54,917 bases of DNA, taken from Pseudomonadota bacterium. GTDB lineage: Bacteria > Desulfobacterota > Desulfarculia > Adiutricales > JAGVGV01. The stretch spans positions 1 through 54,917 of the forward strand of contig JAHJTB010000380.1 in the NCBI GenBank assembly GCA_018830135.1, read 5' to 3'. The translations under genes were made by a program, and so were the position numbers. Under the pieces are notes generated by a model. That model saw only the letters and a program-made list of their open reading frames with translations, had not been told where the DNA came from and did no database searches. This document shows positions 1-32,748 of the stretch, one piece after another. Numbering within the stretch: the stretch's first letter is position 1; each line of letters begins with the position of its first letter.

Positions 1-1
1 A

Positions 2-8254: not shown

Positions 8255-8337
8255 GATCAACCTCTAATAATGGTTCGCCCGCCATCCGGCCCCGAAAAAT
8301 CCGATTTCCGGCGGGCGTCGATTTCGCGTATGTCCGG

Positions 8338-9519: not shown

Positions 9520-9557
9520 GTGCTGTGGGCCTCCCCTCGTGATGGTGTCTGGTCAGG

Positions 9558-9571: not shown

Positions 9572-9659
9572 AGCGGGTCTGAAACCGGAACTTATGAAAA
9601 CGGCGTCGGGGCCGACCATTTGGTAACCGCCTAAAATCAGGTTATATTCGGGACCCCTA

Positions 9660-9675
9660 TCACCTTTTCTGGTGA
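9660..9675. promoter_or_regulatory. Inverted repeat TCACC-N6-GGTGA, candidate operator
   Basis: Five-base arms separated by six bases (TTTTCT) inside an AT-rich part of the divergent intergenic region, about 107 bases before the plus-strand crotonase and 141 bases before the minus-strand dehydrogenase. The position fits a regulator of both directions. No known consensus is recognised. Confidence 0.3.
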
Positions 9676-9781
9676 AATTCAATAATTTTTTTGATTAAAT
9701 CCTAAAAAACCAGGACCCGTTCGGGCCAACCGTGATATAAAAACACCACATCGCATCTCAACATGACAAGGAGGCGACTTC

Positions 9782-10561
9782 ATGGAAAAAGAACTGATCA
9801 AGGTGGAAATACTGGACCGCGTGGGCTACCTGACCATCGACAATCCTCCGGCCAACCAACTCAGTGCGGAACTGAAAAGCGAGTTGATGGCCAAGATAGA
9901 GGCCATGTCGGCCGACGACAACGTCTGGACCGTCGTTCTCACCGGGACCGGCGAACGGTTTTTCATGGCCGGAGCGAACATCCCCGGTCTGCTCAAGCTC
10001 GATTGGAACAGCGGCCTCGAAATGGTTCAGCTCTCCCGCAAGCTTTACGGCACGTTCGCCGCTTGCGAAAAGCCGATCATCGCGGCCATCAACGGCTTCT
10101 GCATGGGCGGCGGCTGCGAAATGGCCCTGGCCTGCGATATTCGCATCGCGGCCGATCACGTCAAGCTGGGCCTGCCGGAAGTCAATCTCGGGCTGATCCC
10201 GGGGGGCGGCGGGACCCAGAGAATGCCCCGGGCCGTCGGACCGGGCTGGGCCAGCTACCTGCTCTTCACCGGCGACGCCATCACGGCCGCCAAGGCCCAC
10301 GAAATCGGCCTGGTCCAGGAGGTCGTCCCTTTCAGCCAGCTCAGGGAAACGGCGCTCGATATCGCCGGCCGAATCAACAAGAAGGCGCCCCTGGCCGTCA
10401 GAGCGGCCAAACGGGCCGCCCGTCTGGGCTTCGAACTGCCCATCGAAGAGGGCCTGGATATCGAAAACAAGGCCTTTGCGGACTGTTGCGCCACCCAGGA
10501 CAAGAACGAAGGCGTGAGCGCCTTCCTGGAAAAGCGGAAACCGGTCTTTCAGGGCCGCTGA
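9782..10561 (+). CDS. Enoyl-CoA hydratase (crotonase)
   Basis: Adds water to 2-enoyl-CoA to give 3-hydroxyacyl-CoA. The 259 residues carry both catalytic glutamates of classical hydratases: one in MGGGCEMALACDIRIA and one in LPEVNLGLIPGGGGTQR. Also seen are DNPPANQLS, RFFMAGANI (CoA-binding/oxyanion loop) and the C-terminal EGVSAFLEKRKPVFQGR. The ATG at 9782 has AAGGAGG nine bases upstream. The gene is followed after 133 bases by a 3-hydroxyacyl-CoA dehydrogenase, the next enzyme of beta-oxidation, with its own candidate promoter between them. An AT-rich leader with TATAAA at about 9735-9740 may be the -10 element, without a convincing -35. Confidence 0.93.
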   Translation: MEKELIKVEILDRVGYLTIDNPPANQLSAELKSELMAKIEAMSADDNVWTVVLTGTGERFFMAGANIPGLLKLDWNSGLEMVQLSRKLYGTFAACEKPIIAAINGFCMGGGCEMALACDIRIAADHVKLGLPEVNLGLIPGGGGTQRMPRAVGPGWASYLLFTGDAITAAKAHEIGLVQEVVPFSQLRETALDIAGRINKKAPLAVRAAKRAARLGFELPIEEGLDIENKAFADCCATQDKNEGVSAFLEKRKPVFQGR

Positions 10562-14940: not shown

Positions 14941-15044
14941 CTTGATAATATTTTTCCGACCGGACGCACGTTTCATTCCCCGGGTCGAAGGTGAAGACCG
15001 GGGCGGAGGGGAAGCCGGCCGTCCGGGATCAGAGAGGGAGTCCC

Positions 15045-15821
15045 ATGAACTTCAAGCACCTGCTCTACGACCGGAAAAACGGCCTGGCCAAGGTCGTCAT
15101 CAACAATCCCGAAAAACGCAACGCCCTGCATCTCGAACTCCGCTACGAACTCATCGACCTGTTCGCCGGGCTTCGGGACGACGATGACGTCAAAGCCGTT
15201 CTGCTGACCGGGGCCGGCGGACATTTTTCCTCCGGGGGCGATATCCAGACCATGGAAGGCGTGACCGCAGTGGCCGGACGTCGCCGTCTGAAAACCGGCC
15301 AGAGACTGGTCCGGGCCATGGTCGAACTGGAAAAGCCCATCGTCACGGCGGTCCGGGGATTCGCCGCTGGCGCGGGGGCCAGCATCGCCCTGGCTTCCGA
15401 CTTCATCATCGCCTCCGAAGAGGCCAGGTTCAGCCTCGGCTTCGTCAGGATCGGCCTCGTTCCGGACTGGGGGCTTTTCTACTTCCTGCCCCTGCGTATC
15501 GGTCTGACCCGGGCCAAGGAACTGATGATGACCGGCGACCCCATCAAGGCCCCGGAAGCCGAAAGGATCGGCCTGATCAACAAGGTGGTTCCCGACGACA
15601 AACTGGACGAGGAGGCCGAGGCCTGGGCGGCCCGGTTCGCCTCGGGACCCGGCCAGGCCCTGGCCATGATCAAAATGGCCCTCAACCGCCTGCCCACCAG
15701 CCTCGAGGCGCTCATGGAAATGGAATCGACCATGCAGTCCGTTGCCTTTACCAGCGATGATTTCGACGAAGGCCGGCGGTCGTTTCTCGAAAAACGAAAG
15801 CCGGATTTCAAGGGAAAATGA
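15045..15821 (+). CDS. Enoyl-CoA hydratase/isomerase family protein (PaaG-like)
   Basis: Crotonase-superfamily protein of 258 residues. The start was set at the ATG at 15045, preceded by AGAGAGGGAG; an upstream in-frame start has no support. Visible: INNPEKRNALHLELR, GGHFSSGGDIQTM, the oxyanion segment AAGAGASIALASDFII, and FVRIGLVPDWGLFYFLP. The last motif has Asp (PDWG) rather than the hydratase Glu, which is the pattern of PaaG-type delta-isomerases, so double-bond isomerisation is more likely than hydration. It ends with EGRRSFLEKRKPDFKGK. The GntR regulator gene follows after about 160 bases. Confidence 0.88.
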   Translation: MNFKHLLYDRKNGLAKVVINNPEKRNALHLELRYELIDLFAGLRDDDDVKAVLLTGAGGHFSSGGDIQTMEGVTAVAGRRRLKTGQRLVRAMVELEKPIVTAVRGFAAGAGASIALASDFIIASEEARFSLGFVRIGLVPDWGLFYFLPLRIGLTRAKELMMTGDPIKAPEAERIGLINKVVPDDKLDEEAEAWAARFASGPGQALAMIKMALNRLPTSLEALMEMESTMQSVAFTSDDFDEGRRSFLEKRKPDFKGK

Positions 15822-15984
15822 TTCTTGCTCCGCGACGGGGCGCCAACCGAGAGGCCGGTCGGGTCAATTATCACAATAGGATCGGCATGTTTGGGAATTC
15901 AGATCGATTTTGGCCGCGAATTCGCTTCGAGGCCCGGGTTTTTCCGGCGTCTCCATTCATGAGTTTATCGTCGAAAGGGCGGGT

Positions 15985-16662
15985 ATGAAATCCGAAAACA
16001 GCAGGCAGGATTCTCCGGTCGATGTGGCCTACAAAAAAATCAAGGAGATGATGTACCACCACGAGATCGTCCCGGGGCAGAAGCTGCTCTACCAGGAACT
16101 GGCCAGAAAACTCAATATGAGTATCACTCCGATCATCCAGGCCCTCAATCGACTCCAACTCCTTAATATCGTTTACTCGGAGCGCAACAAGGGGTATTAT
16201 GTCGGTGAGGCCGACCCAGTCGAGGCCAGGGAGTTGTTTACGGCCCGGGAGGCGCTCGAAACCTACTTGGTTCCGAACATTATCGAGAATCTGAACGCCC
16301 GCAGACTCAAGGAGATCGAGGCGGCCCTTAAGGAACACAGCAAGGGCCTGACCATGCCCCAGCACCGGCGGCTGCTCATGATCATCGACACCAACTTCCA
16401 TCTCAAGATTGTCGAATGTGCCAACAACCGGGTCATATACAACACGTTGAAGATGATTTTCGAGCAGATTTATCTGAAATATCGGCCGGAATACATGCGG
16501 GAGAACCGCCTGGTCGAAGCCGGCCAGGAGCACAAGCTGCTTTTCGAGGCCCTCAAGGAAAAGGATGTCAAAAAGACCAGGCGACTGATCCGGCAGCACA
16601 TCAAAAGCGGTTCCGATCATATCGCCGGAAGCCTGCTGGAAGACCGAAGCATCGAACTGTAA
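15985..16662 (+). CDS. GntR-family transcriptional regulator with FCD effector domain
   Basis: DNA-binding regulator of 225 residues from the chosen ATG. The N-terminal winged helix spans about residues 10-75 (VAYKKIKEMMYHHEIVPGQ, then LYQELARKLNMSITPI recognition region, ending in a wing with KGYYV). The all-helical FCD domain (about 80-215) carries the metal/ligand histidine pattern DTNFHLKI, QEHKLLFEAL and RQHIKSGSDH typical of FadR/VanR-type regulators. FCD regulators usually respond to carboxylates or acyl-CoAs. The gene lies 28 bases upstream of the mutase at the head of the long acyl-CoA cluster, so it probably controls that cluster. An alternative TTG start at 15910 would add 25 residues. 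Confidence 0.88.
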   Translation: MKSENSRQDSPVDVAYKKIKEMMYHHEIVPGQKLLYQELARKLNMSITPIIQALNRLQLLNIVYSERNKGYYVGEADPVEARELFTAREALETYLVPNIIENLNARRLKEIEAALKEHSKGLTMPQHRRLLMIIDTNFHLKIVECANNRVIYNTLKMIFEQIYLKYRPEYMRENRLVEAGQEHKLLFEALKEKDVKKTRRLIRQHIKSGSDHIAGSLLEDRSIEL

Positions 16663-16690: not shown

Positions 16691-18346
16691 ATGGGTGACG
16701 AGCTGGATCGAATCAGGAGCGAAAAACAGAACTGGAAAGAAAGACAACTGGAGAAAAACCCGGTCGGGCTCCGTCATTCCGACTGGGGCGCCCCCATACA
16801 GCCCCTTTACTCCCCCGACGACATCGAGGGGGGCGACTACCTGGAGGACGCGGGCTTTCCCGGGGACTACCCCTTTGTCCGCGGCGTTCACCCGACCATG
16901 TATCTTGGCCGGACCTGGACCATGCGCCAGTATTCCGGCTTCGGCACGCCCGAAGAAACCAACCGCCGCTTCAAGTTCCTGTTGCAGCAGGGGCAGACGG
17001 GCCTGTCCGTGGCCTTCGACCTGCCGACCCAGATCGGGTACGATTCCGACGACCCCATGAGTGAAGGGGAGGTCGGACGGGTCGGCGTGGCCGTGGATTC
17101 CCTCGATGACATGGAAACCATCTTCGACGAGCTGCCCCTGGACAAACTGTCCACCTCGATGACCATCAACGCCCCGGCGGCCATTCTGCTGGCCATGTAC
17201 ATCGCCGTGGCCGAAAAGCAGGGCGTCTCTTCCCGGCAGCTTCGGGGAACCATTCAGAACGACGTACTCAAGGAATACACCGTCCGGGGCACTTACATCT
17301 TCCCCCCCAAGCCCTCCATCCGGCTCGTGACCGACATATTCGCCTTCTGCCGAGAGCAGACGCCCAGATTCAATACGATCAACGTGGCCGGATACCACAT
17401 GCGCGAGGCGGGGTGTACGGCCGTCCAGGAAATCGCCTTCAGCTTCGCCAATGCCATCGCCTACATCGAGGCCGGTCTCAAGGCCGGCCTGAACGTCGAT
17501 GAGTTCGCCCCGCGCATTTCATGGATATTCGACACTCACAACAAGCTGTTCGAGGAGGTGGCCAAGTATCGGGCCGCCCGCAAGGTCTGGGCCGACCTGC
17601 TCCGCCACCGATTCGGCGCCAAAGACCCCCGTTCCTGGATGCTCCGGTTCCACACCCAGACCTCCGGGGCCAGTCTGACCGCCCAGCAACCGGAAAACAA
17701 CCTGATCCGCGTCGCCTACCAGGTCCTGGCCGCGGTCCTGGGCGGGGCCCAGTCCATCGCCGCCTGCTCCTTTGACGAGGCCCTGGCCCTGCCCACGGAA
17801 AAGTCGGTCCAGCTCAGCCTGCGCACCCAGCAGATCGTGGAAAACGAGACGGGGGCCACCGACACCGTGGACCCCATGGGCGGTTCCTATTACCTCGAAT
17901 CCCTGACGCGGAAGATGGAGGCCGAGATCAAGGGACTCATCGGGAAGATCGACGATCTCGGCGGCGCGGTGGAAGCCATTGAAAAAGGCTTCATTCAGCG
18001 GGAGATCGAAAAACGGGCCTATCAGGTCCAGCGGGAGATCGAGGAGAACCAGCGCATCCTCGTGGGCGTCAACAAATACCGGGTCGATGAAAAAGTCGAC
18101 CTGACCATCCACAAATTCAACAACGAGCACGCCAGGCAACAGATCGCCCGGCTGCAAGCACTCAGGAAAAATCGGGATCAGAAGCGGGTCGAGGCCGCTT
18201 TGGCCGACATTCGCCGGGCCGCGCAGGGAGAGGACAACCTCATGCCTCTCTTCATCGATGCGGTCAAGACCTACGCCACGCTGGGCGAAATCTGCGGCGT
18301 GCTGCGCGAGGTCTTCGGCGAATACACTCAGCTCAAGACGACCTGA
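16691..18346 (+). CDS. Methylmalonyl-CoA mutase-type acyl-CoA mutase, catalytic (large) subunit
   Basis: Adenosylcobalamin-dependent carbon-skeleton mutase, substrate-binding TIM-barrel part only (551 residues; the C-terminal B12-binding domain of full-length MutB is absent). By alignment from memory with the Propionibacterium enzyme, residues that contact substrate are kept: T77, R79 and Y81 in WTMRQYSGF (T85, R87, Y89), Q189 and R199 in [13 protein letters not shown] (Q197, R207), Y235 and H236 in AGYHMREAG (Y243, H244). Y75 is replaced by H67. The Tyr/Arg pair is that of carboxylated substrates (methylmalonyl/succinyl-CoA or longer homologues), not of isobutyryl- or 2-hydroxyisobutyryl-CoA mutases. 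No small B12 subunit or MeaB is nearby. AAGGAGG precedes the ATG. An HMG-CoA-synthase-like gene follows. Confidence 0.93.
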
Positions 18347-18391
18347 TGGCCGGTGGGAACCCGATTGCCTGAACAGGAGGTTACTAAGGAT

Positions 18392-19828
18392 ATGGTCGGT
18401 ATTGCGTTAAGCGGAACCTACATTCCCGCCTTCCGGTTGGATCGGGGGATCGTGGCCCAGAACTGGGGCCGCGCCTCCATCGGCGGGGAACGAAGCGTGG
18501 CCAACAACGATGAAGACTCCGCGACCATGGCGGTCGAGGCCTCGATCAACTGTTTGACCGGAATGGACCCCGGCCTGGTGGACGGCCTGTTTTTCGCCTC
18601 GACCACCGGCGTCTACCAGGAAAAGATGAACGCCGTCCTGGTTGCCGCGGCCACGGACATGAGGCGGTCGATCACGACCGCCGACTTCACCCAGTCCCTC
18701 CGGGCCGGGACCGGGGCCGTCAAGTCCGCCCTGGACGCGGTCAAGGCCGGCTCCATGAAAAACGTCCTGGTCGCGGCCGCGGACGCCCGTCTCGGGTATC
18801 CCCGCTCCGACCAGGAACAGGCCTTCGGGGACGGCGCGGCGGCGGTACTGGTCAGCGGCGACGACGTGGTCGCCGAGTACGAAGGCGGCTACTCAATATG
18901 TAACGAGATGTTCGATGTCTGGCGGAACCCCGAGGACACCTACGTCCGGACCTGGGAGAGCCGCTTCATCCTGGGCGAGGGCTACACGGCGAACATGGTC
19001 GAGGCCGTGAGCGGGCTTCTGAAAAAGATGAATCTTCAGGCCAAGGACATAACCCGGGTCATCATGCCCGCCCCGGACGCCCGCACCCACAAGGGGCTGG
19101 CCAAGAAACTGGGCTTCGACGCCGAAACCCAGCTGGCCGATCCCCTGCTGAGCAAGATCGGGCACTGCGGTGCGGCTCAGCCCCTGATCATGCTGGCCGC
19201 GGCCCTGGAACAGGCCCAGCCGGGCGATCGTCTGCTACTGGCCTGTTACGGCGACGGTGCGGACGCCATGCTGTTCAAGGTGACCGAGGCCATCAAGCAG
19301 GAACGGAAAAACCGGACCCTGGAACAGTACCTGGCCCATAAGCTGCCGCTGACCTCCTATTCCCGGTTCCTGAGCTACAAGGGCCTGGTGGAAACCGTGC
19401 CGGGCGAACCGTTCCGTCTCTTCTCCTCGGCCACGGTGACCTGGCGGGACCGCAACAGCATCCTGCGCTGCCACGCCAGCAAGTGCAACCAGTGCGGCAC
19501 CGTCGCCTTTCCCGTCCAGCGCGTCTGCCCCATCTGCGACGCCAAGGACGACTTCGTCGAAGTACGCATCGCCGAGATGAACGGACAGGTCTTCACCTAC
19601 ACCCTGGACAACCTGGCCGGCCGTAGCGACGACCCGGTCGTCGTCCAGACCGTGGCCGAATTCGGCGCGGAAAAGGTCCGTTTCTACGGCATGATGACCG
19701 ACTGCATCCCCGCCCAGGTCAAGGTCGGGATGCCGTTGGGCCTGACCTTCCGCCGGATTTATGACGGGATGGGCATGCATAACTATTTCTGGAAATGCAG
19801 ACCGTTGACCATTGGAGGGCAGGAATAA
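18392..19828 (+). CDS. HMG-CoA synthase-like protein fused to zinc-ribbon/OB-fold (DUF35) domain
   Basis: Two-part protein of 478 residues. Residues 1 to about 310 form a thiolase-superfamily fold like HMG-CoA synthase (GTYIPAFRLDR, ASTTGVYQEKMNAVL, GDGAAAVLVS, KIGHCGAAQPL, CYGDGADAMLF). Residues about 325-478 are a DUF35-type zinc ribbon (Cys 365, 368, 379, 382) plus OB fold. The nucleophilic Cys of HMG-CoA synthases aligns with Leu103 in TADFTQSLRAGTGAV, so Cys-based condensation is unlikely. By analogy with DUF35-thiolase assemblies (archaeal thiolase/HMGCS/DUF35 complex, PhlABC, BbsAB) it is probably a structural or acyl-channeling partner of the thiolase, whose ATG overlaps this stop by one base. 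Start chosen at 18392 after AGGAGG. Confidence 0.87.
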   Translation: MVGIALSGTYIPAFRLDRGIVAQNWGRASIGGERSVANNDEDSATMAVEASINCLTGMDPGLVDGLFFASTTGVYQEKMNAVLVAAATDMRRSITTADFTQSLRAGTGAVKSALDAVKAGSMKNVLVAAADARLGYPRSDQEQAFGDGAAAVLVSGDDVVAEYEGGYSICNEMFDVWRNPEDTYVRTWESRFILGEGYTANMVEAVSGLLKKMNLQAKDITRVIMPAPDARTHKGLAKKLGFDAETQLADPLLSKIGHCGAAQPLIMLAAALEQAQPGDRLLLACYGDGADAMLFKVTEAIKQERKNRTLEQYLAHKLPLTSYSRFLSYKGLVETVPGEPFRLFSSATVTWRDRNSILRCHASKCNQCGTVAFPVQRVCPICDAKDDFVEVRIAEMNGQVFTYTLDNLAGRSDDPVVVQTVAEFGAEKVRFYGMMTDCIPAQVKVGMPLGLTFRRIYDGMGMHNYFWKCRPLTIGGQE

Positions 19829-21015
19829 TGGGCAGCCTCAAAGATCGCGTCGCCATCGTGGGCATGGGATGCACAAATTTTGGCGAGCATTGGAATAAAG
19901 GAACCGAGGACCTGGCCGTCGAATCTTTTTTCGAGGCCCTGGAAGACGCCGGGATCGAAAAGAAGGAGATCGAGGCCTGCTACGTCTCCACGGTCATGTC
20001 CTCGATCATCGGGATTTCCGGGGCCGTCGCCGCCGACGCCCTGAAACTCAAAGACATCCCCATCATCCGTAACGAAAACTGGTGCGCCTCCGGGCACATC
20101 GCCCTGATCGAGGCCTGCATGGCCGTGGCCAGCGGGGCCTACGACACGGTCCTGGCCCTGGGCGTGGAAAAGCTCAAGGACACCGGATACCCCGGTCTGG
20201 GAACCGGACGGGGCATGCACCCGGTCTACGAGGCCAGGCGGACCTCGCCGGGCTCCTTCGGCCTCATCGCCACCCGGTATTTCGAGCAGTACGGGCTGAC
20301 CCCGGAGCAGGGCAAGGAGGCCCTGGCCAAGATCGAAGTCAAAAATCACGACAACGGCAGTCTCTGCCCCAAGGCCCATTTCAAAAACAAGATCACGATT
20401 GAACAGGTCCTGAAGGCCCCCATCATCGCCTGGCCCCTGGGCCTGTTCGACTGCTGCGGCAACAGTGACGGCTCGGCCTGCGCCATCGTCACCACCCCGG
20501 AAAAGGCGGAGGCCCTGAAAAAGGACCCCATCTACCTCAAGGGGTTTGGCATATCCACCGACTCCATGCTGCCCCATTTCCGGCCCGGCTTCACCTGGAC
20601 CAGTTTCAACGCCCTGGTCAATTCCTCCCGCAAGGCCTATGAAATGGCCGGTATCAAGAATCCGCGCGAGGAACTCAGTCTGGCTGAAGTGCACGACTGT
20701 TTCTCCATCACAGAACTCCTGATCTACGAGGACTTCGGTCTCAGTCCCCGAGGACGGGCCAAAGAGGACATCGACGCCGGCTTTTTTCAGCGGGACGGCG
20801 GACTGCCGGTCAACATAGACGGCGGCCTGAAATGTTTCGGCCACCCCATCGGCGCCAGCGGCCTGCGCATGACCTACGAGGTCTACAAGCAGCTCCAGGG
20901 CAAGGCCCAGAAGCCCGAGCGGCAGATCAAAAACCCCAGGCTGGGACTGGCCCACACCTTCGGTGGCCCGCCTCAGCTCAGCGCGGTGGCCATTTTCGGA
21001 AACGAAAAGGGTTGA
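19828..21015 (+). CDS. Thiolase (SCP-x/acetyl-CoA acetyltransferase-like)
   Basis: Thiolase-superfamily enzyme of 395 residues, expected to cleave a 3-oxoacyl-CoA with CoA. The nucleophilic cysteine is Cys86 in NENWCASGHIALIEA. The C-terminal active-site part is INIDGGLKCFGHPIGASG-like, with His in GHPIGASG. The last loop reads AHTFGGPPQLSAV, so the second catalytic Cys (CGGGG motif of type II thiolases) is missing, as is usual in SCP-x type members that work with a DUF35 partner. The ATG overlaps the stop of the OB-fold protein by one base, strong evidence for a joint complex. A large hairpin follows the stop. Confidence 0.9.
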   Translation: MGSLKDRVAIVGMGCTNFGEHWNKGTEDLAVESFFEALEDAGIEKKEIEACYVSTVMSSIIGISGAVAADALKLKDIPIIRNENWCASGHIALIEACMAVASGAYDTVLALGVEKLKDTGYPGLGTGRGMHPVYEARRTSPGSFGLIATRYFEQYGLTPEQGKEALAKIEVKNHDNGSLCPKAHFKNKITIEQVLKAPIIAWPLGLFDCCGNSDGSACAIVTTPEKAEALKKDPIYLKGFGISTDSMLPHFRPGFTWTSFNALVNSSRKAYEMAGIKNPREELSLAEVHDCFSITELLIYEDFGLSPRGRAKEDIDAGFFQRDGGLPVNIDGGLKCFGHPIGASGLRMTYEVYKQLQGKAQKPERQIKNPRLGLAHTFGGPPQLSAVAIFGNEKG

Positions 21016-21203: not shown

Positions 21204-22775
21204 ATGATCAATTACGTTGAAAAGTTCGATGCAAACCGGATCGGCATGGCGAACCACGCCAAAAACATCCCGGACCGGATGGCCCTGATTATGAACGACC
21301 GCTCCTTCACCTATCTCGAATTCGACAAAATGACCAACTCCCTGGCCAACGCACTGATCAACGAAGGGATCGCACCCGGAGACCGGGTGGCCATCCTCAT
21401 GCATAACTCCCCGGAAATCATGGCCTGCTGGGCGGCCGTCGGAAAAGTGGCCGGCACGCCCATCGCCCTGAACTATCGATTCCGGGAAGACGAACTGGCC
21501 TACATCGTCAACGACTCCGAATCCAGGGCCCTGATCTATGGAGAGGAGTTCGAGGACATCGTCGAGCGGGCCAAGCCCAAACTGGAAGTGCCCTCCATAA
21601 TCTACATCCGCCAGGGCGGCGCCACCCCCACGGACGGGACATTGAAGCTGGAAACCCTCATCGAGCAGGCCCCGGACAACACGCCGGACACCGTGACCCA
21701 TGCCCATCAGGTCGCCAGTTCCCTGGTCTACACCTCCGGGACCACGGGGCGGCCCAAAGGCGTCTTCCGCAACTCCAGCAACCGCCTCAACACCCTGCTC
21801 AGCTATGCCTACAACTTCGAATCCACGTACGACGACGTCCACCTGGTCGCCGGTCCGCTCTATCACTCCGCCCCGTACGGCTGGGCCGCCTTCTCCTTGA
21901 TGCTGGGCAACACCGTCGTTCTCATGCCCCGCTTCGACGCCGAGGAGTTCCTGCGGCTCACCGAAAAACATAAGGCCACCACGACCTGGGTCGTCCCGAC
22001 CATGCTCAACCGTATCGTCAACCTGCCCGACCAGGTCAAAAATCGATACGACGTCAGCAGCCTCCGGGTCATGACCGTGGGCGGGGAGTCCTTCCCCTTT
22101 CCCTTGAAACAGAAGTCGGTCGAGTTTTTCGGGCCGGGCAGGATTTTCGAGTTTTTCGGGGCGACCGAGAACAGTTGCGTCACCTTCCTCCGGCCCGAGG
22201 ACCAGCTCCGCAAACCCGGCAGTTGCGGGCGTCCGGCCGTAGGACAGGATATCCGCCTCCTGGATGAAAACAAGCAGGACGTCGAAATCGGCCAGGTCGG
22301 GGTTCTCTATACCAAAAGCCCCTTTCTCCTGGACGGCTATTATAAAAAGCCCGAGGCCACCGAGGCCTGCTATTATGAGGGCTACTTCACCGTGGGCGAC
22401 ATGGCCTATCGGGACGAGGAAGGTTACTACTACATCGTCGATCGCGCCGTGGACATGATTATTTCCGGAGGCGTCAACATCTATCCCGCCGAGATCGAGG
22501 AAACGCTTTACCATCACCCGGCTGTTTTCGATGCCTCGGTCATCGGCGCCAAAGACCCGGACTGGGGCGAGAAGATCGTCGCCTTCATCGTCCTCAAGGA
22601 CGGGGTCCAACTGACCGAAGATGAGGTCATCAGCCATGTCGGCAGCAAGCTGGCCTCATATAAAAAGCCCAAGGAAGTCTATTTTGTGGATGAACTGCCG
22701 TACTCGCCCTCCGGCAAGCAGCTCAAACGCCAGTTGCGACAGGAGTACGAAGCCCGTTCCCGGAACGCGTCTTGA
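21204..22775 (+). CDS. AMP-forming acyl-CoA ligase
   Basis: Activates a carboxylic acid with ATP and CoA through an acyl-adenylate. The 523 residues are the full family length. Seen are the P-loop motif TSGTTGRPKGV, the FFGATENS adenylate-binding motif, GDMAYRDEEGYYYIVDR (A8 hinge, Asp of IVDR), SGGVNIYPAEIEE and the catalytic lysine motif SPSGKQLKR near the C terminus. The N terminus is of the medium/long-chain fatty-acid ligase type. The substrate is unknown; within this cluster it would feed the mutase or dehydrogenase. A GGAGG lies 8 bases before the ATG. The CoA-transferase gene starts 11 bases after its stop. Confidence 0.92.
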   Translation: MINYVEKFDANRIGMANHAKNIPDRMALIMNDRSFTYLEFDKMTNSLANALINEGIAPGDRVAILMHNSPEIMACWAAVGKVAGTPIALNYRFREDELAYIVNDSESRALIYGEEFEDIVERAKPKLEVPSIIYIRQGGATPTDGTLKLETLIEQAPDNTPDTVTHAHQVASSLVYTSGTTGRPKGVFRNSSNRLNTLLSYAYNFESTYDDVHLVAGPLYHSAPYGWAAFSLMLGNTVVLMPRFDAEEFLRLTEKHKATTTWVVPTMLNRIVNLPDQVKNRYDVSSLRVMTVGGESFPFPLKQKSVEFFGPGRIFEFFGATENSCVTFLRPEDQLRKPGSCGRPAVGQDIRLLDENKQDVEIGQVGVLYTKSPFLLDGYYKKPEATEACYYEGYFTVGDMAYRDEEGYYYIVDRAVDMIISGGVNIYPAEIEETLYHHPAVFDASVIGAKDPDWGEKIVAFIVLKDGVQLTEDEVISHVGSKLASYKKPKEVYFVDELPYSPSGKQLKRQLRQEYEARSRNAS

Positions 22776-22786
22776 GAGAGGATGAC

Positions 22787-23743
22787 ATGTCCGACGACCA
22801 AAAACTGATGAGCATGAGCGAGGCGGTCTCGCGTTTCGTCAATAAAGGGACCCGACTGTTCCTGGGAGGCTTCATCCAGCAGGAACCCTTTGCCGCGGTT
22901 CATGAAATCATCCGGCAGGGCATCAGGGACCTGCACCTGACCCACGTGGCCTCGATGCTGTCCGTGGACCAGATGCTGGGGGCCGGCCTGATCGAAAAAC
23001 TGACCACCACCTTCACCTGGAATCCCATCCCGGCCACGGCCCACTGCTTCGTTCGGGCCATGACCCGGGGCATTCCCCGCCGGGTCGAACTGGAGGAGTA
23101 TTCCATTCTGATCATGAACCTGGCCCTGTTTGCCGGCGCTCTGGACCTGCCTTACGTGGCTTCCAAAAGCCTGATGGGCTCGGGATTCGACGGAGAACTG
23201 GGCGGATCGGGCGCCCGCAACCAGCTCAAGTTCGAGAAATCGCCCTTCACCGGCGAGCGGGTCTGTCTGGTCCCTCCCCTCAAGCACGACGTGGGCATCA
23301 TGCAGGTCCAACGCTGCGATCCCGAGGGCAATGCCCAGGCCTGGGGTATCCTCGGCGAAAGCCAGTACGGGATGTTGGGCTGCGAGCACATCATCATCTG
23401 CTGCGAAGAGGTGGTGGACCCGGACGTCATTCGGCGAGACCCCAACCGGACTCTGATTCCGGGCTACCGGGTGGATGCCGTGGTCGAGGCGCCCTGGGGC
23501 AGCCACCCCTTTCCCATGACCGGGCATTACGACATGGACTGGCTCTATTTCGCCCACTACGAACGCAAGACCCGCAACGTCGAGGACTTCAAAGCCTTTT
23601 TGGACGAGTGGGTCTACGGCGTCCGGGACCGGAACGAATACCTCGGCCTCTTGGACGCCAATCGTTTGGAAAAACTTCGGCTCGAGCCCACGAACCCGGA
23701 ACCGGTCTCCTACGGCCGGCTGACCCGCCACTTCGAGGTGTAA
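22787..23743 (+). CDS. CoA-transferase family I, alpha subunit (glutaconate CoA-transferase GctA/IpdA-like)
   Basis: Alpha chain of 318 residues. Opening MSMSEAVSRFVNKGTRLFLG is the usual glycine-containing start of family I CoA-transferases. The segments LYVGGF-equivalent LGGFIQQEPF, VHVASMLS-type strand, LVPPLKHDVGIMQVQRCDPEGNA and IICCEEVVD resemble GctA and the IpdA proteins of steroid degradation. The ATG at 22787 follows GAGAGG; an in-frame TTG 15 bases upstream is less likely. The beta-chain gene follows after one base. Donor and acceptor are not predictable; glutaconate-like dicarboxyl-CoA acceptors would suit a carboxylated substrate. Confidence 0.85.
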   Translation: MSDDQKLMSMSEAVSRFVNKGTRLFLGGFIQQEPFAAVHEIIRQGIRDLHLTHVASMLSVDQMLGAGLIEKLTTTFTWNPIPATAHCFVRAMTRGIPRRVELEEYSILIMNLALFAGALDLPYVASKSLMGSGFDGELGGSGARNQLKFEKSPFTGERVCLVPPLKHDVGIMQVQRCDPEGNAQAWGILGESQYGMLGCEHIIICCEEVVDPDVIRRDPNRTLIPGYRVDAVVEAPWGSHPFPMTGHYDMDWLYFAHYERKTRNVEDFKAFLDEWVYGVRDRNEYLGLLDANRLEKLRLEPTNPEPVSYGRLTRHFEV

Positions 23744-23744
23744 C

Positions 23745-24557
23745 ATGAGCGATCAAACCCATCCTGCCAGTCCGGTCGAGCAGATGGTCGTTTCGGCGGC
23801 CCGGCTTATTGACGACGGCGACGTCTGCATGGTCGGCACCCAGTGGCCCATTGTCGTCTCCGTATTGGCCAAAAGTCTGCACGCCCCCGGGGCTACTCTC
23901 TGCTTCGAAGGCGGCGTCATCCTGGGCCGGGTCCCCGACTTCACGCCCCTGTTCACGGCCGATCCGGTCATTTACGCCAGTTCCTGCCAGCTCGGGACCT
24001 CCTTTGATACCCTGGGCATGGTTTTGCACGGCGGCCGGACCAACAAGGGCCTGCTCTCGGCCGCCTCGGTCGATCGGTACGGCAACGTCAACACCACCTG
24101 CATCGGTGACTACAACGCACCGAAAATCCGCTTCGGCGGCAGCGGCGGGGCCTGCGATTTTGGAAGCTTGGCCAAGACCATCGTCATCGTCGAACACGAC
24201 AAGCGCCGCTTCCCTGAAAAAGTGGATTTCATCACCACGCCCGGGTACCTGTCCGGAGGCGACAGCCGCGTCCGCGCCGGTCTGCGCCCCGGCACCGGAC
24301 CGCTGGCCGTGGTCACTACGCTGGGGCTGTTCCGTTTCGACGAGAACGGGGAGATGATCCTGGCCGGTTACCGGCCCGACGTCTCGGTCGAGGAAGTCCG
24401 GGCCAATGTGGGCTGGGACCTCAAGGTTTCCGAAGATGTTGCGCCCCTCGAACCCCCCACCGGGAAGGAACTCGACGTCCTGAGGACCCGAGTCGATCCG
24501 GAAGGCATGTATATTCGCTATGCCCGTTTTTTGGAGGGCGTGCCCATATCGGTCTGA
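23745..24557 (+). CDS. CoA-transferase family I, beta subunit (GctB/IpdB-like)
   Basis: Beta chain of 270 residues paired with the preceding alpha chain (one-base gap). The catalytic glutamate of family I enzymes, which forms the glutamyl-CoA thioester, is present as Glu55 in CFEGGVILG, matching the E-G-G pattern of GctB. This argues for true CoA transfer rather than the ring-hydrolase activity of IpdAB. Other motifs: CQLGTSFDTLGMVLHGG, VNTTCIGDY, FGGSGGACDFG, VIVEHDKRRFPEKVDFIT. An acyl-CoA dehydrogenase gene follows after 23 bases with GGAG before its ATG. Confidence 0.86.
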   Translation: MSDQTHPASPVEQMVVSAARLIDDGDVCMVGTQWPIVVSVLAKSLHAPGATLCFEGGVILGRVPDFTPLFTADPVIYASSCQLGTSFDTLGMVLHGGRTNKGLLSAASVDRYGNVNTTCIGDYNAPKIRFGGSGGACDFGSLAKTIVIVEHDKRRFPEKVDFITTPGYLSGGDSRVRAGLRPGTGPLAVVTTLGLFRFDENGEMILAGYRPDVSVEEVRANVGWDLKVSEDVAPLEPPTGKELDVLRTRVDPEGMYIRYARFLEGVPISV

Positions 24558-24580: not shown

Positions 24581-25723
24581 ATGGATTTCGAACTTTCGGA
24601 AGAGAACCGTATTTTCCGGGAGGCCATCCGGGAATTCGCCCAGCGGGAAATCGCTCCCCTGGTCGAAGAAGCCGAAGCCACGGCCACCTACCCCAAACAA
24701 CTGTTTCGCAAGATGGGCGAGCAGGGATTTCTCTGCCCGCGTTTCCCCATAGAAATCGGTGGCGGCGGCGGTGACAAGATCACTGAATGCATCATGGTCG
24801 AAGAGGTCAACTACGTCTGCGCCGGCGTGGCCTCCGGCATCGTCGGCCATACCGGCCTGGCCACCTATCCCCTCTATGTCCACGGCTCCGACGAACTGAA
24901 GGAGAACTACCTCTACCCGGCCGCCAGGGGCGAAAAAATCGGGGCCTTCGGCCTGAGCGAGCCGGACGTGGGCTCGGACGCCGCCGCCATCCGGACCCGG
25001 GCCGTGCGGGACGGCGACAGCTACATCCTCAACGGCACCAAGATGTTCATCACCAACGGTCCCATTTGCGACTACGTCGTGGTCTGCGCCTATACCGATC
25101 CCAGCAAGCGGGGCGCGGGCATCAACCTGTTTGTCGTGGACAAGGGCACGCCCGGATTCGTCGTTTCGAGAAAACTGGAAAAACTCGGCAACCACTGCTC
25201 CGAGACCGGAGAACTGGTCTTCGAGGACTGCCGCGTCCCGGCCAGCCACATGATCGGCGGCAAGGAAGGCGGCGGGTTCGAGCAGATTGCCAGCACCCTC
25301 CTGTCCGGACGGATCACTTACGGCGCCCGGGCCACGGGCACGGCCCAGGCCATCTACGACCTGACCGTCGAGTACGCCAAACAGCGCGTCCAGTTCGGCA
25401 AGCCCATCGTCAAACACCAGTTCATCCGCTTTCGCCTGGCCGAAGTGGCCATGCTGGTGGACATCATGCGCCAATATACCTGGCGCGTGGCCTGGCTGTT
25501 CGACCAGGGCAAGAAGGTTCGCAAGGAATCGTCCATGGCCAAACTCTTTGCCACGGAAATGGTTCAGAAGATCGCCGGCGACTGCATCCAGATATTCGGC
25601 GGGTATGGCTACATGAAGGAATACCCCATCGAGCGCCACTTCCGGGATGCCCGGCTCTACACCGTGACCGAAGGCACTTCCGAGGTCCAGCGCATGGTCA
25701 TCGCCAAGGAGTGCGGATTCTGA
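24581..25723 (+). CDS. Acyl-CoA dehydrogenase
   Basis: FAD-dependent dehydrogenase of 380 residues, the standard size. All classical motifs are intact: FGLSEPDVGSDAAAI, NGTKMFITNG, KQRVQFGKPIVKHQF, QIFGGYGYMKEYPIERHFRD and the base motif VTEGTSEVQRMVIAKE with Glu. It belongs to the short/branched-chain group by overall look; chain length is uncertain. It follows the CoA-transferase genes closely (23 bases) and is followed by a GC-rich hairpin and then the lipoate-ligase-like gene. It presumably oxidises the CoA ester made by the ligase or CoA-transferase. Confidence 0.94.
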   Translation: MDFELSEENRIFREAIREFAQREIAPLVEEAEATATYPKQLFRKMGEQGFLCPRFPIEIGGGGGDKITECIMVEEVNYVCAGVASGIVGHTGLATYPLYVHGSDELKENYLYPAARGEKIGAFGLSEPDVGSDAAAIRTRAVRDGDSYILNGTKMFITNGPICDYVVVCAYTDPSKRGAGINLFVVDKGTPGFVVSRKLEKLGNHCSETGELVFEDCRVPASHMIGGKEGGGFEQIASTLLSGRITYGARATGTAQAIYDLTVEYAKQRVQFGKPIVKHQFIRFRLAEVAMLVDIMRQYTWRVAWLFDQGKKVRKESSMAKLFATEMVQKIAGDCIQIFGGYGYMKEYPIERHFRDARLYTVTEGTSEVQRMVIAKECGF

Positions 25724-25856: not shown

Positions 25857-26963
25857 ATGGATACCTGGCGTTTTCTCGACGTCGACTGGCTGACCTACGC
25901 CGAAACGGCCATTTACCGGCCGGTGCTCATGCGGGCCGTGGGAAGGGAACAGGTCCCGGACACGGTCACCTTCTGCACGTTTCCCAAACCGAGCCTGGTT
26001 CTCAACTTTTTCAACGACCCGGACAAGGACGTCGATCTCGACTTCTGTCGCCGGCAAGGCATTCCCGTCTGCCGGGTCATTTCCAACGGCGGCCCGATTT
26101 TGGGCGACGCCGGATACACCTTTACCTTCCTCCACCTGAATACCGACCGACCCAACGTGCCCGGAGACACGCCGGGCATGCTGTCCAAGACCCTGACCGC
26201 ACTGGCCGAGGGCATCTCGGATGCATTCGACGTCGAATGCCGCTTCCGCCCCCTCAACGACCTCGAAGTCCGGTGTGAAGACGGGGCCTGGCGAAAGATC
26301 GGACCCTCGTCCTGCTTTTTCGACGGCCATACCGTCCAGATGGGATCGGGCCTCCAGGTCAGAAAGCCCGACACCCACCTCATCGAAACGGCCATCATCA
26401 CCCCGCCGGAAAAATTTCAGGACAAGGAGGCAAAAAGCGTCCGCGACCGGATCACCTACCTCGAAAATGCCGTCGGCAGGACGGTCGACATGAGCGAGAT
26501 CAGGCGAATCTATCGAGACCAGATCGGCCGGATATTTGGAGTCGAACTGGCAGACGGAGAACTCACGGACCGGGAAAAGGGCATGTACCTGGAGTTGGAA
26601 CAGGAATACACCGCCGACGACTTTTTCATGGAGCGTTCCGAAAAGCGCCTGGGCGATCTCGGACCCGGCGTCAACCGGGCCATGATGCTTTTCAAGGTGC
26701 CCCAGGGCCCCCTGGTCCGACTGGTCACCTTTGTCGACCGCGGGCGCCTGAAGGCCCTGCGCATCACCGGCACGATCCACGCCAGCCCGCTTCAGCCCAC
26801 CTCGCCTGTCCACGAAATCGAAAAAGTCCTGCAAAACCAACCCCTGGACCGGGTTCTGTTCGAAGAGAAAATCGCCGAGGTGCTCGATCGGCCCCTTTTC
26901 AGTTTCACCAAAGTCACGCCGCAAATGCTGGCCGGGAAAATCCATGAATGTGCAAGCGTCTGA
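25857..26963 (+). CDS. Lipoate-protein ligase A-like protein (divergent)
   Basis: 368 residues with the plan of two-domain LplA: an N-terminal BPL/LPL catalytic domain (about 1-245) starting WRFLDVDWLTYAE, with LVLNFF, VDLDFCRRQGIPVCRVI and TFTFLH, and a C-terminal domain with GPLVRLVTFVDRGRLKALRITG like the LplA accessory domain. The nucleotide/lipoate loop, normally RRxSGGGAVYHD, reads RVISNGGPILGD (residues 73-84). A lysine in the position of the catalytic lysine is kept (K147 in WRKIGPSS). No family name was certain at first glance; the assignment rests on motif order. It might ligate another short acid or an acyl group instead of lipoate. The MmgE/PrpD gene starts inside its last 20 bases. 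Confidence 0.7.
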   Translation: MDTWRFLDVDWLTYAETAIYRPVLMRAVGREQVPDTVTFCTFPKPSLVLNFFNDPDKDVDLDFCRRQGIPVCRVISNGGPILGDAGYTFTFLHLNTDRPNVPGDTPGMLSKTLTALAEGISDAFDVECRFRPLNDLEVRCEDGAWRKIGPSSCFFDGHTVQMGSGLQVRKPDTHLIETAIITPPEKFQDKEAKSVRDRITYLENAVGRTVDMSEIRRIYRDQIGRIFGVELADGELTDREKGMYLELEQEYTADDFFMERSEKRLGDLGPGVNRAMMLFKVPQGPLVRLVTFVDRGRLKALRITGTIHASPLQPTSPVHEIEKVLQNQPLDRVLFEEKIAEVLDRPLFSFTKVTPQMLAGKIHECASV

Positions 26964-28308
26964 TTCGCTGGCCCGACGCCTGGCCCGGTTTGCCTGCCGG
27001 CTGAACTACCAGGACCTGACCGACGGGCAGGTCGATCGGCTCAAGGACTTTTTCCTCGACTGGCTGGGTTCGGCCATTGCCGGCCGGAGCGAAGCCCCGG
27101 TCCGCATGATCCGGGAGGTGGCCGAGGAAATGGGCGGCCGACCGGAAGCGACCGTGATTCCGGACGGAACCCGGACCAGCGCCCCCCTGGCCGCCCTGGT
27201 CAACGGAGCCTCGTCCCACGTCAAGGAAATGGACGACCTGCACAGGGAGTCGATCCTCCACCCGGCCGCGGCCATCATGCCGGCCGTTTTCGCCATGGCC
27301 GAACGGGAGGACGTCACCGGGCCCGACCTGATCGTGGGGATCGCCGTGGGATACGAGATCGGCATCCGGGTTGCCCTGGCCGCCGGACCGGACCACTACC
27401 GATACTGGCACACCACGGCTACCTGCGGGACCTTTGGGGCCGCCGCCGGGGCCTGCAGGATTTTGGGCCTCGATGAGGACCGGACCGTCTGGGCCCTGGG
27501 CTCGGCCGGGACCCAGGCCTCCGGCCTATGGCAGTTTCTGACCGAAGGGGCCATGAGCAAACAGCTACATCCGGGCAAGGCCGCCATGAACGGCCTCCTG
27601 GCCGCACTGCTGGCCCGGAAAGGATTCACCGGGGCTGAAGGCATACTCGAAGGGGAGAAAGGATTCCTCCAGGCCACCTCCACGGACTTCGACGGGAACC
27701 GGTGTCTGGACGGACTGGGCCACGAGTTCCGATTCGAACGCAACTCATTGAAATATCACGCTTCGTGCGGACACACCCACGCGGCCGTTGACGCCGTGCT
27801 CCAAGCTTCCCAGGGCGAGACCTGGACCGACCCGGATGTCCGGGAAGTCAAGGTCAGGACCTATCAGGCCGCCCTCGATCTGCTCGGCGGCGTGAACCCG
27901 GACACGCCTTACGCCGCCAAATTCAGCCTGCCTTACTGTCTGGCAGCGGCCCTTAAATTCGACCGGGTCGGAGTAGAGGAGTTCGACGAAGCCTGCCTCC
28001 GGGACGCCGACCTCAGGCGGTTGATGGACAAAATAATCCTTAACGCCGACCCGGAACTGGATCGAACCTATCCGGCCAAGTGGCCGGCGCGGGTCGAAAT
28101 CACCCTGAATGACGGACGCGCTTTAACGGGTTCGGTCGACTATCCCAAAGGCGATCCGGAACACCCCCTGAGTCAGCGGGAACTGAGGCAAAAGTTCGAA
28201 AACCTCACCCACGGCCTGCTGTCGGTTCCGGTGATAGAAAGCATCTATCACAAATCGATCCATCTGGAACAGGCGACCCGCGTCTCGCGCCTGCTTGAAG
28301 ATATCTAA
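26944..28308 (+). CDS. MmgE/PrpD family protein
   Basis: Protein of 454 residues of the 2-methylcitrate dehydratase / cis-aconitate decarboxylase superfamily. Motifs: LKDFFLDWLGSAIAGR, LVNGASSHVKEMDDLH, HPAAAIMPAVFAMAE, GYEIGIRVALAAG, HTTATCGTFGAAAGA, TEGAMSKQLHPGKAA and YHASCGHTHAAVDA. The His-rich GASSHxxEMDD and KxxHPGKAA motifs are the family's conserved active-site parts. Members dehydrate or decarboxylate tricarboxylic or branched dicarboxylic acids. In this cluster a hydroxy- or carboxy-branched intermediate is a plausible substrate (inference). The ATG lies 20 bases inside the lipoate-ligase-like gene, so the two are coupled. Its stop overlaps the convergent AbrB-like gene by four bases. 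Confidence 0.9.
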   Translation: MNVQASDSLARRLARFACRLNYQDLTDGQVDRLKDFFLDWLGSAIAGRSEAPVRMIREVAEEMGGRPEATVIPDGTRTSAPLAALVNGASSHVKEMDDLHRESILHPAAAIMPAVFAMAEREDVTGPDLIVGIAVGYEIGIRVALAAGPDHYRYWHTTATCGTFGAAAGACRILGLDEDRTVWALGSAGTQASGLWQFLTEGAMSKQLHPGKAAMNGLLAALLARKGFTGAEGILEGEKGFLQATSTDFDGNRCLDGLGHEFRFERNSLKYHASCGHTHAAVDAVLQASQGETWTDPDVREVKVRTYQAALDLLGGVNPDTPYAAKFSLPYCLAAALKFDRVGVEEFDEACLRDADLRRLMDKIILNADPELDRTYPAKWPARVEITLNDGRALTGSVDYPKGDPEHPLSQRELRQKFENLTHGLLSVPVIESIYHKSIHLEQATRVSRLLEDI

Positions 28309-30160: not shown

Positions 30161-30952
30161 TCACCTCCCCAATACTTTTTCCACAAAACTCGGCAGCATC
30201 ATGACCTGGGTCTCGCTGCCTTCGGGCAGATTGTTCAGCGCCTGGCTGTAGCATCCGGTGCAGACGTGGACCATGGTCCGGGTCGAGACGTTGTCCATCA
30301 TATGGGCCAGGCCTTCCGGGTGAAAACAGCACTTCGGCGCGCTGATGCGGTTGATTTCCAGCCCCTTGATTTTGTCGAAAACCTCGTTGGTGGACTTCAG
30401 GTCCATGGGCGCCGGTGAGAACTTCCGATGGAGGCGGTAACACCCGGCATAGTAGTCGATCTGGTCCTCGAACCGGACCTCGTTCAGGAGCTCATTGATG
30501 ACTGCCGGGTAGAAAACGATCTCCGCGTCGGGAAACGCGTATTTGTAAATCGGATAACAGGGCGAACAGAAGATGATCAATCGTTTTGCCCCGAGCTTTT
30601 CGGCCTGCTCGATGTTTTTGCCCGCGAACTCCTTGGACAGTTCGCGGCATTCCTCCATGGCCGCCTCATCCTTGGCCTTGATCGCCGGCCGGTACAAATA
30701 ATTGCCGCAACAGTATTCGGTTGAGAGCATGGTGTAGGACAGGCCTTTTTTGTCGAAAAGGCGGGCCAGCGGTTCGAGCAGATGGGGCAGGTTGGGCAGT
30801 ACCTGGCAACCGGAAACCAGGACGTTTTTCGCCGGCTGGTCATAGGGCAGATTGTATTTTTCCAGTATGGGAATCCGGTCGGGCATCTGGGCGTTGGCCT
30901 TGCCGGAGGAACGGATGGATTCCACCGCTTCCGGGTCGATAAGTTGATTCAT
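30161..30952 (-). CDS. HdrB-like heterodisulfide reductase subunit B / CCG-domain Fe-S protein
   Basis: 263 residues with two CCG (cysteine-rich) domains that in HdrB hold noncubane [4Fe-4S] clusters. First domain: VSGCQVLPNLPHLLEP, then TEYCCGNYLYRP and FCSPCYP. Second domain: YYAGCYRLHRKF, APKCCFHPEG and VCTGCYSQALNN. The order matches HdrB/HdrD/GlpC-type proteins, but each CCG is modified (CCGN, CCFH), so the cluster type is uncertain. No HdrA or HdrC gene is nearby. AGGAGG precedes the ATG. It lies 65 bases downstream of a radical SAM gene on the same strand, with a terminator between them, so the two may be separately transcribed or only partly coupled. Confidence 0.8.
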   Translation of the reverse strand: MNQLIDPEAVESIRSSGKANAQMPDRIPILEKYNLPYDQPAKNVLVSGCQVLPNLPHLLEPLARLFDKKGLSYTMLSTEYCCGNYLYRPAIKAKDEAAMEECRELSKEFAGKNIEQAEKLGAKRLIIFCSPCYPIYKYAFPDAEIVFYPAVINELLNEVRFEDQIDYYAGCYRLHRKFSPAPMDLKSTNEVFDKIKGLEINRISAPKCCFHPEGLAHMMDNVSTRTMVHVCTGCYSQALNNLPEGSETQVMMLPSFVEKVLGR

Positions 30953-31017: not shown

Positions 31018-32748
31018 CTATCCGGTGTGATGGCCAACGGACACGACGCGCCGGTCTTTGTACGGCCTCGGTTTTCCTGCTTGGCGCCCCTTGCGGACCC
31101 AGACCCGGTCGTCAAAGGTCCGATAGTAGCTCCAGCGGGTCGGCGGGTCGGAGACCGAGGCGACCCGCGGCTGCCTCGACCTCTTGGCGATCCGGCCGGC
31201 AATGTGCCGCGAGATGATCCGGGACAGCAGCGGCGGCCGGCCCACCTCCTCCCGATAGCGGCGTTCGAGCCCGCCGGCCCGTTCGCGCACCACGGGGCTG
31301 GGATGATGCAGGATGCAGGCCCGCAGAAAGCCGTAAAGCCCCGTTGCCATCTTGCGGGCCCTCATATATTGATATTCATGGAACGCGCCGTTCTGTTTCC
31401 TGAAGACCGTCAGCGAGTCCAGGACGCTCTCCATGATTTGGAGCGGCGGCGGACCGTTTTCGTCCCGCAGCCTCTCATGGGCATAGTCGAAATAGGACTT
31501 GATGGCGTTCCGCTGGAAATGTTTGAGCCGGAACACGTCGTCCTTCCAGAGGTGGAAGTCCTCCCATCCATAGGTCTCCAGAATCCGGCCCGAATCGGCC
31601 ATCCGTTCATACAGCTCCGTGCCCGGGCAGGGTGTCAGGGGCGAAATCTGGTAGAACGTCGGCTTGAGGGCCACGAACCGGTCGATGTCCTCCCTCAGGT
31701 TGTCCGGCGTGTGAAAATCAAAGCCGAGCACCAGGGAGCCCGTGGTCTGGATGCCGTGGCGGTGAAGCCCGGCAAAGGTCTCCTCGATGCTTCGGCCCTG
31801 GCGCTTTGCGTATCGGTCTTCGGTCCGGCCGGACCCGCCCAGAAAGCTTTCCACCCCGATCCAGATCGAACCCACTCCGCACTCCCTCAGCTCCATGGGA
31901 TCGAACGGGGCCAGGGAGCGCATGGACCCGAAGCTGAACCAGCGCACGCCCCACGTCTCCGGGTCCCCCCGCAACAACCGTCCCAACTCCCGGACGTAAT
32001 CCGGGCGGATGAAAATGTCCTCGTCAAAAAGAATGACGAACAGGTCCTTGAACCGGAGTCGGGCCTGGTAGTTCTTGATGAACCGATACACCTGTTCCGG
32101 TTCGGCGACGTAGATTTTCCGGTGACGGAAAAAGGCGCTGGTATTGCAGAAATCACAGGCGTTGGGGCAGCCCAGGGCCACCAGGAGCACCGGAATCCGG
32201 GCCTGGGCCTCGAGGCCGGGAATAGAAAACCCGGTCATGGGGAAATGATACTGGGTGATCTCGCGATCCACCGGTTCATCGTCCAGCAGCCCGCGCATGA
32301 ATCGGACACCCTCCTCCCGGCAGAGGTGATCCGCGTTTTCGCGAATGTAATCGGCATCGCGGTTACAGTCCCCGGGCACCGGGCGATCCAGGGTCCCCAC
32401 GCCGTAACCGCCCACCACGATGATCGTGCCCGGGCGCTTTTCCCGGACCCGTTTCATCATCCGGGCGATCTTGGCCGTGTGCAGACTTTTCAACTGGAAG
32501 CCGACGACGTCGTATCCTTGGTCGAGTTCCCGGTCGAAATCCTCCCAGTGCGGGTCCTCCAGGACCGTGGTCGGACAGGATATATTTTCCGCGATTATGT
32601 AAAGGCCGTAGTAGTGGCAGTGGGCGGTCAGTTGAAAAGGACCGTGCCCCCGGGCCAGTCGGGAGGCCAGTACGTCGTACATGTCCTCTCCCCAGCCCGG
32701 TTCGTTGGGACCGTAGTTGGCCGTGAGCAGGACACGGGGCTTTGTCAT
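31018..32748 (-). CDS. Radical SAM protein with N-terminal B12-binding-like domain
   Basis: 576 residues. Residues about 1-150 form a Rossmann-type cobalamin-binding-like domain (YDVVGFQLKSLHTAKI, TIIVVGGYGVG) without a recognisable DxHxxG base-off motif. The radical SAM core follows with C194, C198 and C201 in ALGCPNACDFCNTS, then FKDLFVILFDEDIF, GVGSIWIGVESF and GSLVLGFDFHTPDN, and SPLTPCPGTELYERM, a pattern common in B12-radical SAM methylases and BchE-like enzymes. The C-terminal 170 residues are helical and basic. The substrate is unknown; lipid or cofactor methylation is possible. The start ATG has a GGGGGG box upstream. It is followed by the HdrB-like gene. Confidence 0.88.
   Translation of the reverse strand: MTKPRVLLTANYGPNEPGWGEDMYDVLASRLARGHGPFQLTAHCHYYGLYIIAENISCPTTVLEDPHWEDFDRELDQGYDVVGFQLKSLHTAKIARMMKRVREKRPGTIIVVGGYGVGTLDRPVPGDCNRDADYIRENADHLCREEGVRFMRGLLDDEPVDREITQYHFPMTGFSIPGLEAQARIPVLLVALGCPNACDFCNTSAFFRHRKIYVAEPEQVYRFIKNYQARLRFKDLFVILFDEDIFIRPDYVRELGRLLRGDPETWGVRWFSFGSMRSLAPFDPMELRECGVGSIWIGVESFLGGSGRTEDRYAKRQGRSIEETFAGLHRHGIQTTGSLVLGFDFHTPDNLREDIDRFVALKPTFYQISPLTPCPGTELYERMADSGRILETYGWEDFHLWKDDVFRLKHFQRNAIKSYFDYAHERLRDENGPPPLQIMESVLDSLTVFRKQNGAFHEYQYMRARKMATGLYGFLRACILHHPSPVVRERAGGLERRYREEVGRPPLLSRIISRHIAGRIAKRSRQPRVASVSDPPTRWSYYRTFDDRVWVRKGRQAGKPRPYKDRRVVSVGHHTG

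Follow-up and report, generated by a model that had tools for sequence, protein, structure and literature searches.

A divergent family of Lpl(AB)-fold proteins in acyl-CoA catabolic gene clusters, possibly retuned to an acid other than lipoate

To our knowledge, the LPL/BPL superfamily is otherwise known only for the attachment of lipoate, octanoate and biotin. Its two-domain members, for example LplA of Escherichia coli and the other Lpl(AB) proteins (PF21948, TIGR00545), share with the protein described here the overall fold, the catalytic Lys, an Asn-Asp pair and the first Arg of the lipoate-binding loop. Specialised Lpl tied to one metabolic system are the sLpl(AB) of the LipS1/S2 type and the LplA-like ligases of the sHdr-LbpA system (PMC10332631, PMC6067878), the genes of which adjoin those for LipS1/S2, LipT or LbpA. 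The LplA-like ligase of sulfur oxidisers modifies only LbpA, which is encoded nearby; some specialised Lpl still use lipoate and one of those studied was reported to be single-domain (PMC6067878). In studied ligases the C-terminal domain is needed for lipoyl-AMP synthesis, and similar sequences of the LPL fold can differ in activity, LIPT1 aligning with LplA but working as an amidotransferase (PMC7253636). LipM, LipL and LIPT1 belong to the same superfamily, with changed chemistry on the conserved fold. For gene sets combining a lipoate ligase with an acyl-CoA cluster, no paper was found in the open-access library searched, nor does any of 12 papers listed there on acyl-CoA clusters contain the term lipoate ligase.

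From the 54,917-nucleotide stretch of DNA analysed here (the window), an Lpl(AB)-like protein can be deduced whose gene follows, in this order, those for a B12-dependent mutase, an HMG-CoA-synthase-like protein, a thiolase, an AMP-forming ligase, two CoA-transferase subunits and an acyl-CoA dehydrogenase, and precedes an MmgE/PrpD gene (Table 1). Both the acyl-CoA setting given in a preliminary description of this DNA and the overlap with the MmgE/PrpD gene, amounting to 20 bases, are thus borne out. The Lpl-like sequence is a real gene under purifying selection: its ATG start is in register with those of aligned relatives, the codon score is positive, the long ORFs overlapping it in antisense were discarded, and the Lpl-like pair of loci L073 and L127 shows a dN of 0.148 (about 0.15) versus a dS of 1.96 (about 2), with other pairs behaving alike. 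A pseudogene is ruled out by the open frame, the high-confidence fold and the low dN/dS in relatives. Plasmid origin was discarded as well (no plasmid match at 1e-5), and contamination is not likely because syntenic clusters are shared by relatives from several families within the phylum.

Table 1. Coordinates of the Lpl-like gene, its neighbours in the window and the domains and residues of the encoded protein.
Feature	Position	Strand	Remarks
Enoyl-CoA hydratase-like protein	14991..15821	+	homology to syntenic hydratase genes
GntR/FCD transcriptional regulator	15910..16662	+	
B12-dependent acyl-CoA mutase, large subunit	16691..18346	+	profile match
HMG-CoA-synthase-like protein	18353..19828	+	profile match
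Thiolase	19795..21015	+	profile match; 73-83% identical in L073, L127, L128
AMP-forming acyl-CoA ligase	21204..22775	+	profile match
CoA-transferase subunit	22772..23743	+	profile match; syntenic in L128, L130
CoA-transferase subunit	23745..24557	+	profile match; syntenic in L128, L130
Acyl-CoA dehydrogenase	24581..25723	+	upstream neighbour of the Lpl-like gene
Lpl(AB)-like gene	25857..26963	+	368 aa, ATG start
N-terminal catalytic domain	residues about 1-260	+	profile and structure matches
Altered lipoate-binding loop, residues 73-84, RVISNGGPILGD	26073..26108	+	E. coli counterpart 69-RRSSGGGAVFHD-80
Invariant Asn134-Asp135 pair, codons	26256..26261	+	E. coli N121-D122
Catalytic Lys147, codon	26295..26297	+	E. 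coli K133; invariant in 43/43 family members
C-terminal LplB-type accessory domain	residues about 273-354	+	3r07_C profile match, E 3.3e-18
MmgE/PrpD family protein	26944..28308	+	20 bases shared with the Lpl-like gene

The only Pfam match of the window protein is LplA-B_cat (PF21948; E = 1.7e-14, 54.7 bits against a cut-off of 27), which confirms the relation to the BPL/LPL fold for which the preliminary description had proposed a profile search. The NCBIfam lipoate-ligase models, on the other hand, score far under their cut-offs (TIGR00545 with 43.7 of 280 bits, NF053750 with 49.7 of 480). The other Lpl-type protein of the genome, encoded on contig C251, does not reach the TIGR00545 cut-off either (126.5 of 280 bits). 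Among PDB sequences the top match is Thermoplasma LplA (E 2e-10), and both halves of the bipartite LplA/LplB of Thermoplasma acidophilum (2ars, 3r07), which in the window protein are fused into one chain with an altered loop, are among the best matches. A profile built from 36 relatives retrieved several LplA chains with E-values no higher than 1e-30 and additionally the separate LplB chain, the latter over positions 273-354, so the C-terminal part represents an LplB-type domain. The AlphaFold model (mean pLDDT 93.9, pTM 0.88) matches whole LplA chains, corresponding to the LplA plus LplB architecture, with Foldseek E-values of about 1e-20 for solved LplA structures, 1e-22 for E. coli LplA (1x2g) and a TM-score of up to 0.83 by target length for LplA-2 of Enterococcus faecalis. 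Hence, the Lpl(AB) lipoate-ligase fold of the protein is complete, with both of its domains, in agreement with the LplA-like fold order read from its sequence earlier. A LipM-like peptide matched only LplA structures, and these weakly, and was therefore not used to locate a LipM-type Cys.

In a tree of 63 proteins, a family of 43 members including the window protein is set apart from 20 canonical-type Lpl of related genomes (support 100/99), the label canonical-type being assigned from motifs and operon context, not from activity. An earlier tree containing E. coli LplA agrees on this separation, with a very long E. coli branch. The window protein is consequently not an ordinary LplA but represents a separate branch of the fold, and the divergence from LplA claimed at the outset holds in both trees. 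Its immediate clade (support 100/100 in the 63-protein tree) comprises eight members, i.e., the window protein, those of genomes G167, G412, G464, G470, G472 and G473 and that of L032, a deltaproteobacterial MAG contig which is treated as the same record as contig C250 of genome G478 and counted once, both being 22,648 bases long with the match at almost identical positions; one scan of genome contigs had returned L032 as the single relative. Among the canonical-type rows, three proteins of about 355 aa (L152, L154, L156) form a 100/100 clade on a long branch.

Equivalent positions were read from an alignment with E. coli LplA, in which the loop 69-RRXXGGG-75 and Lys133 fit the published numbering (PMC9307952). 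The lipoate-binding loop RRxxGGG is not matched by the window protein, which reads R73-V-I-S-N-G-G-P-I-L-G-D84 and thus RVISNGG. In the window clade, Arg69 (E. coli numbering) is kept, Arg70 is replaced by Val, Thr or Ile in all eight members, and further changes are Gly73 to Ser or Asn, Ala76 to Pro and His79 to Gly. Asn77 is private to the window copy, the seven closest relatives carrying Ser at this position and Phe at position 82 (SGGPIFGD). The motif SNGGPILGD, put forward in the preliminary description as a departure from the usual SGGGAVYHD, is therefore present, but only part of the change is diagnostic because the His of YHD is also missing in 20/20 canonical-type Lpl of related genomes. 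Across the whole family, the first loop Gly is found in 4/43 members and the KxSG glycine likewise in 4/43, compared to 20/20 canonical-type Lpl in either case, and Pro occupies the position of E. coli Glu21 in 42 of the 43. In E. coli LplA, the lipoyl moiety is contacted by Trp37, Val44, Arg70, Val77, His79 and His149 and the adenine by Asn83, Thr151 and Phe78 (PMC9307952); of the latter, Asn83 and Thr151 align with Tyr87 and Leu166 of the window protein. Unlike in Lpl(AB) with their intact lipoate-binding loop and KxSG motif, both elements are largely replaced in the family, while Arg73, Asn134, Asp135, Lys147, Lys186, Asp189, Lys190 and Arg198 are kept in 43/43 family members. Fixed chemistry residues together with a variable acid-binding loop would be expected if the acid specificity had changed.

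Members of the 43-protein family are associated with gene clusters for acyl-CoA catabolism. One or more acyl-CoA genes lie within 8 kb of 33/43 family genes versus 6/20 control loci (Fisher p = 0.0007), two or more within this distance of 28/43 versus 3/20 (p = 0.0003) and a transporter gene of 24/43 versus 4/20 (p = 0.013), counts which ignore kinship, include eight loci contributing two genes each and refer to controls that are not matched to the family genes in genomes and proportions, namely 20 arbitrary stretches from five genomes of the window's class (G042, G043, G047, G049, G051) plus G084. Near canonical-type Lpl genes, acyl-CoA genes were seen in 1/9 cases. Neighbours were annotated by BLAST against a small reference set (E 1e-10).

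The clade's Lpl-like gene recurs together with genes for an acyl-CoA dehydrogenase, a PaaK-type ligase and another Lpl-like protein. The dehydrogenase is also the direct upstream neighbour in L128 and L130 and lies one gene off in L073 and L127. Up to the Lpl-like gene, L128 shows an order nearly identical to that of the window, lacking the AMP-forming ligase and with a hydratase before the dehydrogenase; downstream follow genes for a PaaK-type ligase and another Lpl-like protein and then those for a TAXI-type receptor and a fused TRAP permease. Additional genes in the otherwise similar loci L073 and L127 code for a B12 subunit, a cupin, another dehydrogenase and a NifU_N/IscU-like protein; L073 moreover has a carboxylase gene. 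The NifU_N/IscU-like gene directly adjoins 7/7 genes of subclade B1 (L056, L057, L058, L059, L061, L073, L127). Loci with two Lpl-like genes mix subclades, combining B1 with B2 (L056-L059), A with B1 (L073, L127) or A with B2 (L126, L128), and in the window and L032 the A-type gene has no such partner. The notion of the PaaK-type ligase as obligate partner is weakened, as none is present in the window and the best match in the genome to the L073 PaaK is 36% identical. Likewise, the co-occurrence with MmgE/PrpD that the preliminary description had suggested to check was not confirmed: such a gene is adjacent in just two of the eight clade loci, the window and L032, and the two MmgE/PrpD proteins are 23% identical, so a special partnership was rejected. 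In L072, a single ORF (1266-2486) combines the start of a PaaK-type ligase with the end of a TRAP permease, maybe due to a deletion or an assembly fault.

With a score of 43.7 of 280 bits against TIGR00545, a separate clade and the acyl-CoA gene context, the window protein differs from Lpl(AB) beyond its loop. Our preferred reading, to which we assign a probability of roughly 45%, is an ATP-dependent, acyl-AMP-forming ligase of Lpl(AB) fold that has adapted to one of the cluster's acids; adenylation activity, acid identity and acceptor are features we infer. The branch would thus have left lipoate metabolism and joined acyl-CoA catabolism. With support from the C-terminal domain, a carboxylic acid and ATP would be converted to an acyl-AMP, Lys147 would hold carbonyl and phosphate, and the acyl group might then be handed on to a protein lysine or to CoA as acceptor. 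Rather than lipoate or octanoate, the acid is probably one that the neighbouring pathway uses as a substrate or forms as an intermediate. Ligation of such an acid fits the invariant catalytic residues and the variable acid-binding loop. Against it, loss of Arg70 and of the adenine contacts could mean weak or no adenylation, a further acid activator looks redundant in clusters already holding CoA ligases or CoA-transferases, and specialised Lpl still using lipoate are known (PMC6067878), although one of them was reported to be single-domain.

A doubtful alternative, though the most probable of the rivals, is a lipoate or octanoate ligase dedicated to a single GcvH-like acceptor encoded elsewhere, the lipoylated form of which would serve the pathway. 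The kept catalytic residues and the precedent of the LbpA-specific ligase (PMC6067878) are in line with this. Moreover, the window genome (G000) yields eight GCV_H (PF01597) matches, some of unusual architecture such as a 329-aa Cys-rich protein, and six biotin/lipoyl-domain (PF00364) matches, all off the window's contig. On this contig neither profile found a match, so the earlier statement that no lipoylated protein is encoded nearby stands. Unlike lbpA, however, a GcvH-like gene was seen beside 0/43 family members (BLAST with one GcvH for those other than the window gene), and lipoyl-contact positions are replaced. Nor was a lipoyl-synthase gene seen beside any of the 43, and LipS1, LipS2 and LipT, neighbours of known sLpl(AB), were found near none of them but at L064, L065, L069 and L071. 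In the window genome, PF21948 matches only LipB (contig C314, its gene adjoining a GcvH gene), the Lpl encoded on C251 and the window protein, and in 10/10 family genomes scanned it also detects other proteins, which score much higher. LipB, the second Lpl and the GcvH proteins elsewhere therefore cover ordinary lipoylation, and the window gene is not the genome's sole lipoate ligase.

Compared to the acyl-AMP-forming ligase, an ATP-independent acyl- or amidotransferase acting from acyl-CoA or acyl-protein to protein, as known from LipM, LipL and LIPT1, is unlikely. It could account for the lost Arg70 and adenine contacts of the window clade, and would have a counterpart in the LplA-alignable amidotransferase LIPT1 (PMC7253636). 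Cys153, invariant in 8/8 clade members, might serve such a reaction, while Cys128 near the ND motif is found in only 6/8; no reference transferase aligned reliably. The ligase is favoured because the LplB-type domain, associated with lipoyl-AMP synthesis (PMC7253636), is kept in the window protein, whereas LipB and LipM lack one. Very unlikely is a non-catalytic descendant, i.e., a ligand sensor or assembly partner of a second Lpl-like protein: two Lpl-like genes of different subclades are frequent per cluster, but Lys147, Asn134 and Asp135 are invariant under strong purifying selection, only one family gene is nearby in the window, L032 and L072, and a second family member was not found in genomes G000, G478 and G167.

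Extending the acyl-AMP-forming ligase to all 43 members as new acid-activating enzymes, which would adenylate diverse pathway acids for transfer to CoA or, in the NifU_N/IscU-adjacent subclade, to sulfur (giving thiocarboxylates), is a distinctly speculative and rather improbable proposal. The rebuilt acid pocket, in combination with catalytic residues left intact and the acyl-CoA association, nevertheless points to a possibly unrecognised protein modification or acid activation in anaerobic carbon breakdown, for which the conserved cluster delimits the candidate acids and acceptors. As the family genes pass the PF21948 threshold, they risk being annotated as lipoate ligases.

The sLpl-type proteins of related genomes are separate from the family and mostly 519-531 aa long; the single protein scanned ends in a DUF116-like tail (L071; 25.5 bits at a cut-off of 25). 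Such proteins of about 520 aa are encoded at L064, L065, L069, L071 and partly L066 in operons with FAD oxidoreductase and radical-SAM-like genes, which resemble those for LipT/LipS1/LipS2, LipS2 and LipT being named from the operon pattern. L065 bears two tandem sLpl-type genes (7782-10438) in a LipS1/S2-like operon, of which one lacks the region for the long C-terminal tail. GcvH domains within longer proteins with Cys-rich N-terminal parts are encoded at L103 (2967-3956, 329 aa) and L104 (6205-7134, 309 aa). In the window, a radical SAM protein with a weak B12-binding match (31018-32748, minus strand) adjoins a CCG-domain protein (30161-30952, minus strand), and ORF translations between about 39000 and 54000 indicate an apparent cobalamin-biosynthesis cluster, which would suit the B12-dependent mutase.
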